Under the pieces are notes generated by a model. The model saw only the letters and a program-made list of their open reading frames with translations. It made no database searches and was not told the DNA's origin. A DNA stretch of 51,139 nucleotides from the NCBI GenBank assembly GCA_944393745.1, contig CALYBD010000015.1:1-51139 (forward strand), read 5' to 3'. Both the position numbers and the translations under genes were made by a program. Positions 13,117 through 21,231 of this stretch are shown here, piece by piece (position 1 is the stretch's first letter; each line of letters starts with the position of its first letter). This stretch comes from an uncultured Alphaproteobacteria bacterium (lineage in GTDB: Bacteria > Pseudomonadota > Alphaproteobacteria > CAAGCB01 > CAG-977).

Positions 13117-13145
13117 TTGCCTTTTACAGCTCTTTTTGCTAAAGT
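13117..13145 (+). promoter_or_regulatory. Sigma-70-type promoter for the structured RNA leader
   Basis: TTGCCT at 13117-13122, a 17-base spacer, and TAAAGT at 13140-13145. A start near 13152 would place the first hairpin of the RNA right at the 5' end. Confidence 0.55.
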
Positions 13146-13151
13146 AACTTG

Positions 13152-13373
13152 GTCGGAAAAATCACCGACAGGGCGTCAGAAACCCTTGAGTATATAGCCG
13201 CCTTGTGTATGGCGGTCAATAAGTTATGCACCGAATCTGTCCTGAAACGGGCGGATTTCGGTGAATAAGGCCTATGCTGAATAAGCCGAGCCGTTTGTAT
13301 ACTCACGGTTTCTGAAAATCCGCCCACCTACAAAGGTGGGTTTTATTTAAACAATACGAAAGGATTTCAGAAA
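13152..13373 (+). ncRNA. Structured RNA leader, riboswitch-like, upstream of a lipoprotein gene
   Basis: A 5' hairpin pairs GTCGG (13152-13156) with CCGAC (13165-13169). A long closing helix pairs 13176-13194 (TCAGAAACC, then TGAGTATA) with 13298-13315 (TATACTCA, then GGTTTCTGA), about 17 pairs with a small internal loop. It encloses a hairpin CCGCC/GGCGG (13198-13215) and a 14-pair hairpin (13229-13263, one bulged T, loop TGAAAC). A terminator hairpin follows (13323-13340). The 3' strand of the closing helix and its flank (13309-13321) can instead pair with 13362-13373, covering the GGA of the ribosome site and the first base of the ATG. That mutual exclusivity is what suggests a regulatory leader. 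A stand-alone 6S-like or phage C4-like RNA is the alternative. Confidence 0.6.
13323..13348 (+). terminator. Rho-independent terminator at the end of the RNA leader
   Basis: CCCACCT and AGGTGGG form a seven-pair stem with loop ACAA, followed by TTTTATTT. It lies 25 bases before the lipoprotein ATG, so it can act as an attenuator. Confidence 0.75.
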
Positions 13374-13738
13374 TGAAAAAAGTTTTTCTTTTTATACCGT
13401 TGCTGGCTTTGGTTGGATGCGCACCTCAGATTGCCAAAAACGGAACGACAACTTCGGTTTCTTATCAACAGAACGGAACAAATTGTGTTTACACGGAAAA
13501 ATTTGATGACGTTTTTTTTGTGCCTGAACGGAAAGGATTTTCCATAAAAGAAAAAAAAGTGTCTATTGAAAGAAAATCCAATACGATTACTTTTGCCGAC
13601 ACAAAATGTTCTGCTCTGATTTTAAAAGAAGTCGAACGGGATACGCATAAAAGTGCGCTTTCAAATAATTTTCAGAAACCGACATCCGTAGAAAACAAAA
13701 TTACTCACAATAACAATAAATCGGGATTTTTTTATTAG
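13373..13738 (+). CDS. Small putative lipoprotein
   Basis: The 121-residue product begins with a lipoprotein signal (MKKVFLFIPLLALVGCA; lipobox LVGC, modified Cys at residue 16). The mature part is polar with Lys/Ser/Asn-rich stretches and two further Cys; no family is recognised. An AAGGA ribosome site precedes the ATG and is predicted to be sequestered by the upstream RNA. Monocistronic between two terminators. Confidence 0.75.
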   Translation: MKKVFLFIPLLALVGCAPQIAKNGTTTSVSYQQNGTNCVYTEKFDDVFFVPERKGFSIKEKKVSIERKSNTITFADTKCSALILKEVERDTHKSALSNNFQKPTSVENKITHNNNKSGFFY

Positions 13739-17028: not shown

Positions 17029-17067
17029 GAAAGGAATTTGATTTTAAAAGCAAACAGGAAACAAACT

Positions 17068-20000
17068 ATGGGGCAGGATACCTCTTTCGAAAACGAGCCG
17101 GAGTCCATTTCCGATGACGGCAAAATGATATTTTCCGAAAGCACTTCTTCACACAAACACCCGAAATGGTATGAAGATTTCAGTATTACCGTCGGATTAA
17201 TCCTCAGTGTCATATGGGGATACGTTGTTGTTGATTATGTTCTGGCGACCGGCTGGTGGGCCGCGCGTTTTGAAATGACACCGCCGGAATTTATGAGCTT
17301 TGTCGCCGGTGCTTTATCTCCGTTTGCTTTTATATGGGTAGCGGCGGCGTATTTTTCCGCACAAAGAAAATATATTAAAGAAGCAAAAAAACTGCGTGCC
17401 TATATTTTTGAATTTATCCACCCGAATGCCAAAAACAAATTATACGTCAAATCTCTGCTGGACGATATCCGTCGACAGACGGCCGATTTGAATACGGTTT
17501 ATGACCGGTTAAAGGACTGTACCGCCGATACCGGATCCGCTTTGGCCGAACGCGTCAGAGAATTAACGGCCATTGCCGATTCTTTGGAACAAAACGTTGA
17601 TGAATCCGTTCAAAAAATCAAAGACAAAAGCAACGATTTAAAAGCCGCGGCAGATGCCGTCGACACCCAAACCGTCCGAAACATCGAATTGTTGGAAACG
17701 AATCTGAACGCTGTCCGGCAAGCGGCAGATACGACAACGCAGACTTTATCGGCCATCGGTTCCTCTTTACAATCCGACACGGCCGCTTTAAAGGAAACGG
17801 GAACAGCTTTAACGGACAAGGCCATGCAGCTGTCGGCAGAGCTTCGGGATCAAAACACTTTGCTGCGCAATGCGGCCGAAAACGCCTGCGATATCTTAAC
17901 ACGCCAGACGGCAGCGGCAACAACCGCTTTGACGGCACAGACGGAAATGATCGTCAAGGCGGGAAATGACGTTTATGCAACATTGGACGAACAATCCGTC
18001 CGAATTAAACAGGATATTCAGACCCAAGTTGCCCTGATTACCGATTCCGGCAAAGAAGCCGGCGATCATATGTCTGTCATGACCGCCGATCTGGAAGAAC
18101 AAACCGCCTTGCTGCGCGAAGCGGCCGAAACGGCGCGGACAAACACGGAAAAAATGCTGGGCGGACTGGAACGGCGCATTGAAACGTTGGAAGAAATTTT
18201 TGAACGGCAAAACAACGTTATTTCCGACAAAGATGCCTTATTGACACAGACATCCGAAAAACTGCAGACAACGTTTAAAGAACAAAACGCTCTGCTGGAT
18301 CAGGAAGCGGAAAAAATCATTGCCCGGTTTAAGACAATTGAAACAACGCTGGATACTTATCTGAACGAAATTAACGCCGCATCGACCAATGCCGTGGAAC
18401 AGATTTCTTCCGTTTCCAATGCGCTGAACGACAAAGCCGAACAAATTACCAAGGCGGGTTCTCGGGCCAGAACGGAAATTTCCACCGTTGACGAAGAAAT
18501 CGAAAATCGTGCCGATCTGTTAAATGCCGCGGCATCGCGACTGCGTTCGGACGCGGAATCCGTATCGGGTGCTTTGGCCGAACATACGCAAAGATTAACG
18601 ACGGCGCTGGACGAAGCGTCTGAAAAACTGGCCGTCATACAGGAAAATATCAACACCGGCATTTCGCAAATTGATACCAGCGTTTCCAATGCCGAAGAAA
18701 AATCCGAAACGGCCTGTCAGAAACTGACTAAACAGGCCGGCGAATTGTCCGATCTGACCGGCGCATTGGTTTCGCAGGCAATTGTGACGGAAACATCGCT
18801 GGCTCAGCAACAAAAATACGTTTCCAATGCTTCGGCCAAACTGGAAGAAGCAAAAACAACGCTGAAAGAACAGGCCGATGATCTGACCGGTATTGCCGAA
18901 CTGTTGGATTCCCGGGCGGCCGAAACGGTTGTGCGACTGTCCCGCCTGCTGGAAGACACCATAAATCAGGCCGGAAAAATCACTGATCAAATCAATGAAA
19001 TCGACACGTCTTTGTCCAATAAAATCAATGCGCTTGATTTATCATCACAGCGAACGGTCGTTGCCAACAACACTTTGCGCGAAGAACTGGAACGTCATAA
19101 AACCCTGCTTGACGCTTCGGCACAGCGCATTTCGGCTTATGCCGAAGAACTCAGCGCCGAAATTACGCGCCAGACAACACAGATGGACATTTCCTCCGAA
19201 CTGATCAAGTCGCGTTCGGAAAAAGCCGTTTTACAAATCGACGAACAGTTCAGAAAACTGACCGAAGACGCGCAAAACATGCTTGACAGCACGCAGAACG
19301 CTTCAACCGTTCTGGCGGATCAGTCAGAAAAAATCGAAACGCTGTTCAGTCGGCAGAACACGACTCTGTCCGCCGTTTCGGATAAACTGTCCGAACAAAG
19401 TGCGCAGGTTGCCGCCATGCTGCGCGAACAATCCGAACAGGCCGACAAAGATCTGGAACGTCTGGTTTCCCGAATCCATCTGATCGAAGAAGGCTTAAGC
19501 GTTCAGACAAAAGAACTGACAAACGCCTCCGAAATGACGGTGTCTCAGCTGGAAAACGTCGGCGCGGCTTTGACCCGTCAGACGGATACCCTGACGAACT
19601 TAAGCGAAACGGCAAAAACAAAAATAACGGAAACGGGCAACATTATGATGCAGGCGGCGCAGAAATTAACGTCTGTCACGCAGGACACCTGTACCCGCAA
19701 CATTCAATCGACAACGGCTTTGGAAAACAAACAAAACGAGTTCAAGCAGTCCGCCGACGAACTGATTCAGCGCATTACGGAACTGCAAAGCGAAATTGAG
19801 GAACAAACGGACGGGCTGCAAAAACAATCCGCAAAATCAACGCAGCAGGCCGTTATGATCCGCGATTCCATGCAGCGACATATCATCGATCTGGGTGATG
19901 TTGCCAATATCGTTGCCACACAGTCACGCATGGGCGAGGCTTCTTTAAGCAATCAGATCAATTATTTAAAGGAAGCGGCCGAAGACGTTATGACGCATAT

Positions 20001-21231
20001 CCGCAACATCAACGAAGCCGTGCGCAAAAACACAAACGACCTGTTGACGGCTTCGTCGCGGATCGGCTTTGAACTGGACGCCATGGGCGAAAACCTGCGC
20101 CGCAGAAACGAAGAAGCGTCAAAAGCCGCGGAAGACAGCCTGTCACGTTCGCAGACAGCCGCTCAATTCCTGGAAGAAAAGGCACACCTGCTGGCCGATA
20201 TGACCGATCAGGTTGTCAACGGATTAACCAATGCCGGCAGCGAATTTTCGGCGCAGGCAAACAGGATTGAAGCCGCCGGAGAAATCGCACGCGAACAAAT
20301 CGAAACGACCGGGGAAACTTTCCTGGTGCAGTCTCATCAACTGACCCGCATTTCCGAAGAAGCGCAAAAAGCCATTAAAAACTTCAGTGTCGTCATGCGC
20401 GAACGAGCCGTTGATTTCAACAAAACGGCCGAAAATGCCGGTGAACGGGTTCATGCTTTAAACGAAACCGTTCAGCAGATCGGCAAAGAATTTGAAGAAA
20501 TGTCCAACAAAGGCGTCATTCAGATTGACTTAGCCGGCCAGCGGCTGCGCGCCATGATCAGCGAAGTGGCCGGTAATTCCGAACGTATCGCCGTAGAAGT
20601 AAAAAAATCCGGCGAACAATTTGTCGATCAGTCCGATTTATTGTCAATTGCGGCGGAAGATGCTTTAAAACGTTTGCAGGATTTGCTGACTGTCATGCGC
20701 GACAACGCCAAAGAAATTCAGGAATCCGGCGAAAAAATTTCCGCTCAGTCCATCAAGCTGGGCGGCGCGTTCAATCGCCAGGTGCAGGCATTGATTTCCG
20801 CGTCCCGATCGGCGGAAGAATATCTTTCTGCTTTGGATAAGAAAAAAGAAGACGCCGATACCGAACGCTTTATGCGCGAAGCCTCTTTTATTATTGAAAA
20901 GCTGCAGTCTTTAGGCGTTGACATGGCGCGTATTTATACGCCGAATGTTGAAGAAGATCTGTGGAAACGCTATTATTCCGGCGACAGAAGCGCCTTTATC
21001 CGACATTTATCCCGTGCCGTAGACAAGCATCAGGTGCGCAAAATGACGGATCTGTTTACGGAAAACGCCGAATTCAGGGAATGCGTGTCACGCTATGTGT
21101 CCGAATTTGACGGCATTTTGGCGCGCGCGCAGGAAAACGAACGTGCCGACGTGCTGACGGGCGTTCTTTTGGGATCGGAAGCCGGGCGCTTATATATGCT
21201 TTTGTCCCGCGTTTTCCATAAAGAAGCCTGA
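17068..21231 (+). CDS. Giant membrane-anchored coiled-coil protein (1387 aa)
   Basis: Two membrane helices lie near the N-terminus (about residues 40-62 and 75-97; the second includes FAFIWVAAAYFSAQ). About 1150 residues of heptad-like coiled coil rich in Ala, Glu, Gln, Thr and Asp follow. The globular C-terminal 120 residues contain ASFIIEKLQSLGVDMARIY, EEDLWKRYYSGD and LLGSEAGRLYMLL. Rare charged breaks and repeated ETA/QTAAL-type units resemble apolipoprotein-like or methyl-accepting-like repeats, but there is no HAMP or chemotaxis signalling tip. I start it at the ATG with AGGA eight bases upstream; a TTG at 17038 is in frame. Large polar or septal scaffold proteins of this shape occur in alphaproteobacteria, so a scaffolding role is an inference. 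Confidence 0.8.
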   Translation: MGQDTSFENEPESISDDGKMIFSESTSSHKHPKWYEDFSITVGLILSVIWGYVVVDYVLATGWWAARFEMTPPEFMSFVAGALSPFAFIWVAAAYFSAQRKYIKEAKKLRAYIFEFIHPNAKNKLYVKSLLDDIRRQTADLNTVYDRLKDCTADTGSALAERVRELTAIADSLEQNVDESVQKIKDKSNDLKAAADAVDTQTVRNIELLETNLNAVRQAADTTTQTLSAIGSSLQSDTAALKETGTALTDKAMQLSAELRDQNTLLRNAAENACDILTRQTAAATTALTAQTEMIVKAGNDVYATLDEQSVRIKQDIQTQVALITDSGKEAGDHMSVMTADLEEQTALLREAAETARTNTEKMLGGLERRIETLEEIFERQNNVISDKDALLTQTSEKLQTTFKEQNALLDQEAEKIIARFKTIETTLDTYLNEINAASTNAVEQISSVSNALNDKAEQITKAGSRARTEISTVDEEIENRADLLNAAASRLRSDAESVSGALAEHTQRLTTALDEASEKLAVIQENINTGISQIDTSVSNAEEKSETACQKLTKQAGELSDLTGALVSQAIVTETSLAQQQKYVSNASAKLEEAKTTLKEQADDLTGIAELLDSRAAETVVRLSRLLEDTINQAGKITDQINEIDTSLSNKINALDLSSQRTVVANNTLREELERHKTLLDASAQRISAYAEELSAEITRQTTQMDISSELIKSRSEKAVLQIDEQFRKLTEDAQNMLDSTQNASTVLADQSEKIETLFSRQNTTLSAVSDKLSEQSAQVAAMLREQSEQADKDLERLVSRIHLIEEGLSVQTKELTNASEMTVSQLENVGAALTRQTDTLTNLSETAKTKITETGNIMMQAAQKLTSVTQDTCTRNIQSTTALENKQNEFKQSADELIQRITELQSEIEEQTDGLQKQSAKSTQQAVMIRDSMQRHIIDLGDVANIVATQSRMGEASLSNQINYLKEAAEDVMTHIRNINEAVRKNTNDLLTASSRIGFELDAMGENLRRRNEEASKAAEDSLSRSQTAAQFLEEKAHLLADMTDQVVNGLTNAGSEFSAQANRIEAAGEIAREQIETTGETFLVQSHQLTRISEEAQKAIKNFSVVMRERAVDFNKTAENAGERVHALNETVQQIGKEFEEMSNKGVIQIDLAGQRLRAMISEVAGNSERIAVEVKKSGEQFVDQSDLLSIAAEDALKRLQDLLTVMRDNAKEIQESGEKISAQSIKLGGAFNRQVQALISASRSAEEYLSALDKKKEDADTERFMREASFIIEKLQSLGVDMARIYTPNVEEDLWKRYYSGDRSAFIRHLSRAVDKHQVRKMTDLFTENAEFRECVSRYVSEFDGILARAQENERADVLTGVLLGSEAGRLYMLLSRVFHKEA

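Follow-up and report, generated by a model that had tools for sequence, protein, structure and literature searches.

A structured leader precedes a small lipoprotein gene in the window, a stretch of 51,139 nucleotides from an uncultured alphaproteobacterium (GCA_944393745.1, contig CALYBD010000015.1), and is likely to encode an antisense RNA of the P1 C4/P4 CI type which silences its own mRNA with locus-specific recognition. The leader belongs to a multi-copy family that we regard, with reasonable confidence, as a distant relative and not a member of sRNA-Xcc1 (RF02221), sharing the C4/P4-CI type of regulation. In gut alphaproteobacteria an RNA of this type has probably been amplified, its copies preceding surface genes and others. 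If true, common gut bacteria have made a phage-type immunity RNA into a regulator of their surface genes, present in many copies that are each individually addressed, and if the C4/P4-CI reading is right it also provides an anatomy and a target for sRNA-Xcc1.

Architecture of the leader

The leader consists of a series of hairpins followed by an intrinsic terminator and the start of the regulated gene (Table 1). It folds with a predicted energy of -87.3 kcal/mol compared to -51.4 kcal/mol for dinucleotide shuffles (z -8.9). The preliminary description proposed mutually exclusive helices over the ribosome site, and this is supported, including by three-strand covariation in variant copies. The motif TCAGAAA is present at both 13176-13182 and 13367-13373 with its complement TTTCTGA at 13309-13315, the terminator lies between the competing sites and the ATG begins at 13373, all exactly as described, and the pairing between strands B and C comprises 12 of 12 standard pairs with one bulged A. 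The upstream promoter, which had been called good, is plausible but turns out to be weak, with 8/12 consensus matches; across the family, promoter scores show a modest excess (8.0 vs 7.05 in shuffles).

Table 1. Positions of the leader elements and the downstream gene in the window
Feature	Position	Strand	Remarks
Putative promoter TTGCCT-17-TAAAGT	13117..13145	+	Weak; missed by a stricter scan
P0, 5' hairpin of variable sequence	13152..13169	+	Adjoins core; hairpin end is core start in 79/87 relatives
H1 hairpin AGGG(CGUCAGAAA)CCCU	13170..13186	+	Displays strand A (UCAGAAACC, 13176-13184); equivalent hairpin upstream of RF02221 loci
P2 5' arm (barcode') UGAGUAUAUAG	13187..13197	+	Partner 13295-13305
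P3 hairpin (GYCGC/GCGRC)	13197..13216	+	
P4 hairpin	13229..13263	+	3' arm overlaps X5' bases; P4 and X mutually exclusive
X5', 5' strand of acceptor-like closing stem	13249..13258	+	RF02221 model start; predicted RNase P cut 13248/13249
Predicted antisense small RNA, about 97 nt	13249..13345	+	Inferred from X5' and terminator; fold -37.4 kcal/mol
P5 hairpin GGC..GCC	13269..13292	+	
Barcode hairpin GCCGU(P2 3' arm, 13295-13304)ACGGU	13290..13309	+	CCG(loop)CGG form also in RF02221 loci
Strand B GGUUUCUGAAAAUCC	13307..13321	+	Alternative partners A or C
X3' AAAUCCGCCC	13316..13325	+	10 bp with 13249-13258; partly excludes terminator 5' arm
Intrinsic terminator	13322..13345	+	Kept in most relatives
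ACC directly after X3'	13326..13328	+	Similar to tRNA 3'-end RCC, which RNase P recognises
Strand C GGAUUUCAGAAA	13362..13373	+	Spans Shine-Dalgarno and A of ATG; target comparable to seqC
Small lipoprotein gene, 121 aa, MKKVFLFIPLLALVGC..	13373..13738	+	Predicted regulated gene

The duplex between strand B and its own start region is predicted at -15.1 kcal/mol, and none of 200 shuffles was so low (-6.6 +/- 2.1). The longest B:C run has a mean of 8.2 over 88 non-redundant relatives as opposed to 5.2 in shuffles, and a run of at least 8 is found in 59 of the 88 compared to 1.3% of shuffles. The pairing over the ribosome site is retained by most homologues; its loss had been named in advance as evidence against the arrangement. 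Within one molecule the A:B state (-84.7 kcal/mol) is favoured over the B:C state (-81.0 kcal/mol) by only 3.7 kcal/mol; since A:B is slightly preferred in cis, silencing may need a separate molecule. The lipoprotein gene also holds a perfect 14-nt complement (ATTTTCAGAAACCG, 13668-13681) of strand B at 13306-13319, and no other gene among the 88 relatives has a site as long; it may be a second target or have arisen by chance.

Covariation supports the structure. Across 63 distinct matches 97.3% of cells are paired, compared to 87.3% in shuffles and 28-44% when the alignment is slid. P2 shows double, compensatory changes at 7 of 7 counted pairs and is paired in 98.6%. Stem X played no part in fitting the model. 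It keeps nine of its ten pairs in at least 93% of the sequences, four of the ten show double changes, and the one pair that is less well kept is non-standard in 28 of the 63. Variant copies have changed all three strands A, B and C together, as in L038 (UUCGAAAACC / GGUUUUCGAACAUCC / AUGUUCGAAAAU) and L034 (AUACAAACC / GGUUUGUAACAUCC / UUACAAAU), with concerted changes of the same kind in L072, L058 and L068. The A side is lost in L040, where B and C still match, and B:C pairing is poor in L032, L062_749, L067 and L039.

A multi-copy family with individual barcodes

The element is found at 19 places in its own 2.25-Mb alphaproteobacterial genome by blastn, and a covariance model of the core (13170-13326, built from 12 copies) detects at least 21 copies. 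All six genomes of the same genus carry it in 4 to 20 copies each, as do three of five further genomes of the same family with 4 to 6 copies; distant alphaproteobacterial families have a few copies, and a wider draw across the class found the element in 11 of 289 members. A DNA pattern search returned 62 stretches, nearly all from assemblies of gut or rumen alphaproteobacteria, Azospirillum sp. CAG:239 among them. The pattern fixes most of A and B and its matches therefore say little on A:B covariation, but they are fair for testing P2, P3, P4 and X. A plasmid collection gave no match and a viral-contig collection no pattern match, with one weak phage-like fecal record.

Many copies are located at contig ends, and L066 and L104 are shortened copies without a gene. 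Several copies in the own genome are interrupted within P4 (the end of L012, the start of L018, the copy at 1928 in L016, the start of L019, and L014), two P4-interrupted copies having identical sequence after GGGCGGAT (CAACCCAGTTAAAAAGTATC...), which suggests an insertion element favouring the P4 hairpin.

P2 is a per-copy barcode helix, unrelated in sequence between copies and yet about 99% paired within each. Its mean identity between copies is 0.37, compared to 0.77-0.79 for P3 and P4. This is most apparent for L050 and L051, whose identity is 38% within P2 and 99% elsewhere. P2 is never shared between two copies of the own genome even though they are up to 94% identical in the remainder; it is shared by some counterparts in related species, for instance L029 and L069. 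Selection for distinct identities would be expected to yield this pattern, which simple neutral drift of a helix would not. In L063, L064 and L073 the two P2 arms are mismatched or match only partly, L063 combining a 5' arm of the L027 type with a foreign 3' arm, as would result from recombination between halves of two copies, or from misassembly.

Relationship to sRNA-Xcc1

At the gathering threshold, an Rfam search of the whole window returned only tRNAs. A permissive search found a single above-chance relative, RF02221 (sRNA-Xcc1), which the copy in the window matches with 32.7 bits and the best copy in the own genome with 40.7 bits, both below the cut-off of 53. The preliminary description had reported no match to a known class, and this holds above threshold with RF02221 as a sub-threshold relative; a strong hit to a stand-alone RNA, which would have counted against the riboswitch-like reading, did not appear. 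The 6S RNA named as an example matches at chance level (E = 1) and was rejected.

RF02221 is widespread in Proteobacteria, where 48 of 299 sampled genomes contain it at E <= 1e-4 (about 16%), 35 of them above the cut-off (12%), often in several copies. The closing stem X, the P5 hairpin, the barcode hairpin CCG(loop)CGG and strand B are found in identical order in both families, and both have an upstream H1/barcode' and, often, a downstream target. The barcode and B were tested separately in the flanks of RF02221 loci, as an earlier test of whole-RNA duplex energy was too noisy. Among 100 loci, ordered complementarity to barcode and B is present upstream in 80 and downstream, near the start of the next gene, in 45, compared to about 8% in either direction when loci are mismatched; permutation z values are 17.4, 16.7, 13.0 and 10.0, uncorrected for shared ancestry. 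Neither flank is part of the Rfam model. Upstream there is most often a hairpin, for example GGGG(CCGAAAA)CCCC, with the barcode complement after it, and downstream of many loci the hairpin-type and the barcode-complement parts are both repeated at the ribosome site of the next gene. Locus L173 exemplifies this with CCGAAAACCCCATACGTAAG upstream, CTTACGTCGGTTTTCGG in the RNA and CCCCGAAAGGAGACGTAAGCCCATG in the start region. Once the H1 hairpin had been seen in RF02221 loci, the reading of A:B (P1) as an ordinary closing helix was dropped.

The two families differ in that the core from P2 to P4 is fuller in the gut family, whose target C has only the A-like part and lacks the second barcode of many RF02221 loci. 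RCC follows stem X in 89% of 83 close relatives but in only 35% of RF02221 loci. The downstream genes are also different: those sampled after RF02221 elements include the phage antirepressors Bro-N, KilA-N, P22_AR_N and Rha as well as SymE, whereas the gut family mostly precedes surface proteins. A blastn search of plasmids with the RF02221 consensus found none.

Xcc1 has been mapped by RACE as an 88-nt RNA (PMC2996969), and we infer that the RF02221 model, which has 87 positions and begins at X5', starts at the mapped end. sRNA-Xcc1 is described as trans-acting with targets that are predicted only, and a 2025 paper places it upstream of symE without giving a mechanism (PMC12444791). A non-exhaustive literature search found no paper linking sRNA-Xcc1 to a C4/P4-CI type mechanism.

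Comparison with phage immunity RNAs and proposed mechanism

The CI RNA of P4 has two pairing partners, seqA on its upstream side and seqC on its downstream side (PMC4825925), and in P1 RNase P cuts a longer transcript at the 5' end of the closing stem to form C4, in which b' occludes the ribosome site and a' is a variable specificity loop (PMC5320573). The leader is reminiscent of both, as its middle RNA is complementary both to an upstream site and to one covering the start of the gene that follows. Like C4 of P1/P7 (RF01695; also c4-2, RF02944), it would be an antisense RNA that lies upstream of its target in one transcript and covers the ribosome site; the specificity loop is variable, and RNase P is predicted to cut immediately 5' of the closing stem (compare PMC5320573). 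Unlike C4, it has an upstream mimic hairpin, H1, and a different terminator anatomy, and the C4 (RF01695) covariance model gave no match at the element in any scanned locus. The order of a seqA upstream, a complementary RNA in the middle and a seqC downstream is shared with P4 CI and with Gifsy-1 IsrK/STnc1160 (PMC4825925), and H1 with strand A can be likened to seqA as an upstream mimic. In P4, however, the outcome is transcription termination before the replication genes, whereas here C lies over the ribosome site and each gut-family copy has its own barcode. The amplified C4-like sRNAs of Acinetobacter baumannii (PMC5320573) likewise occur in many copies per genome with differing specificity loops; their targets are not established, while here each copy keeps a mimic and its own downstream gene. 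A phage antirepressor or other phage gene as target is found for the RF02221 relatives and not for the surface proteins of the gut family.

It is proposed that transcription starts near 13152 and that the 3' part of the leader forms stem X (13249-13258/13316-13325), a tRNA-like closing stem with ACC directly after it. RCCA is bound by RNase P via GGU (PMC4919922); the RNase P RNA of the own genome is of type A and has GGU in the expected loop, the tRNAs of the genome have an encoded CCA, and Hfq is also present. Stem X, the mapped length of Xcc1 and the match of RCC to GGU together lead to the predicted cut at 13248/13249, and with the terminator setting the 3' end a small RNA of about 97 nt would be released. 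This RNA would present the barcode in a hairpin loop followed by strand B. Pairing of B with C over the ribosome site would stop translation, and barcode and B could also pair with the upstream A and barcode', as P4 CI does with seqA; pairing at A would either sequester the antisense strand or stop the nascent transcript. The barcode may restrict upstream recognition to the own locus and, if the model is right, specificity should track it. The proposal builds on the observed alternative pairings, the covariation, the family and the A-B-C plan that recurs in RF02221 loci. Against it speak the RF02221 score below cut-off, the lack of a C4 match, a target C without the second barcode, the slight preference for A:B in cis, the competition between X and P4, the low frequency of RCC in RF02221 loci, the mismatched P2 arms (L063, L064) and the poor B:C pairing of L062 and L039. 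The mapped 5' end of Xcc1 falls at the start of the stem and had suggested an HDV-like ribozyme, but the strands do not follow the order of such a ribozyme and RNase P explains the end, so this reading was dropped. Locus L155 holds, within about 3 kb, an RF02221 element before a P22-type antirepressor and a sub-threshold match to c4-2 RNA (2890-2958, 34.8 bits, cut-off 41), and two C4-like RNAs may coexist there.

Alternative explanations

The preliminary description saw the leader as riboswitch-like. In a metabolite riboswitch A:B would close an aptamer of P2 to P5, the ligand keeping B off C and translation on, and without ligand B would cover the ribosome site. The multi-branched conserved core, two states that are 3.7 kcal/mol apart and the combination of a terminator with ribosome-site sequestration are indeed features which riboswitches have, but P2, the heart of this core and its most variable helix, is a different barcode in every copy, which is unexpected in an aptamer. 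About twenty copies precede unrelated genes, and the equivalent plan in RF02221 loci precedes antirepressors and SymE; with lipoproteins and porins also among the genes, the relatives do not point to one pathway. A small-molecule aptamer is not supported by these results and we consider it improbable. Somewhat better placed, though still unlikely, is a cis-acting attenuator that releases no RNA and chooses co-transcriptionally between A:B with read-through and B:C with termination, in response to transcription speed, a leader-binding protein or temperature. All strands are on one transcript, the two states are close in energy, the terminator is conserved and Hfq is present in the genome, all of which would suit such a device; it leaves unexplained why the barcode differs in each copy, why the X stem is tRNA-like and why an 88-nt Xcc1 RNA is released.

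There is a very slim chance that the element is a mobile or recombinogenic palindrome-like repeat, its structure serving its spreading and the pairing at the start codon being a by-product of insertion near genes. The high copy number, the copies at contig ends or interrupted, the shortened ones without a gene (L066, L104) and the possible recombinants L063 and L064 would fit this. Conserved placement shortly before the start codon, a C strand kept complementary to B and barcode arms that are about 99% paired argue against it, as does the outcome for the viral-contig and plasmid collections, with one weak phage-like record only.

Downstream genes and possible cross-silencing

The genes that follow the copies mostly encode secreted or membrane proteins, including proteins with Cys-rich repeats, lipoproteins, PEGA proteins and outer-membrane barrels, with an HU-like protein and a hexapeptide transferase as exceptions. 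The product of the 121-aa lipoprotein gene has no Pfam match, and a paralogue of the gene is located downstream of copy L037. Secreted proteins bearing Cys-rich repeats, which resemble protozoan variant surface proteins, follow many copies (L022-L024, L026, L102 and others).

As B and C are common to most copies, the RNAs could cross-silence, and predicted duplexes across the own-genome copies reach -14 to -19 kcal/mol for most combinations. One tentative and rather doubtful model is that the copies make up a network in which surface proteins are cross-silenced: the RNA of one active locus could silence many others, and the private barcode would provide recognition of the own leader. If this were true, surface antigens could be expressed in a mutually exclusive or switchable manner by a system built from a phage immunity device. 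Elsewhere in the window, a 1397-aa open reading frame (17038-21231) with long heptad-like repeats probably encodes a coiled-coil membrane protein.
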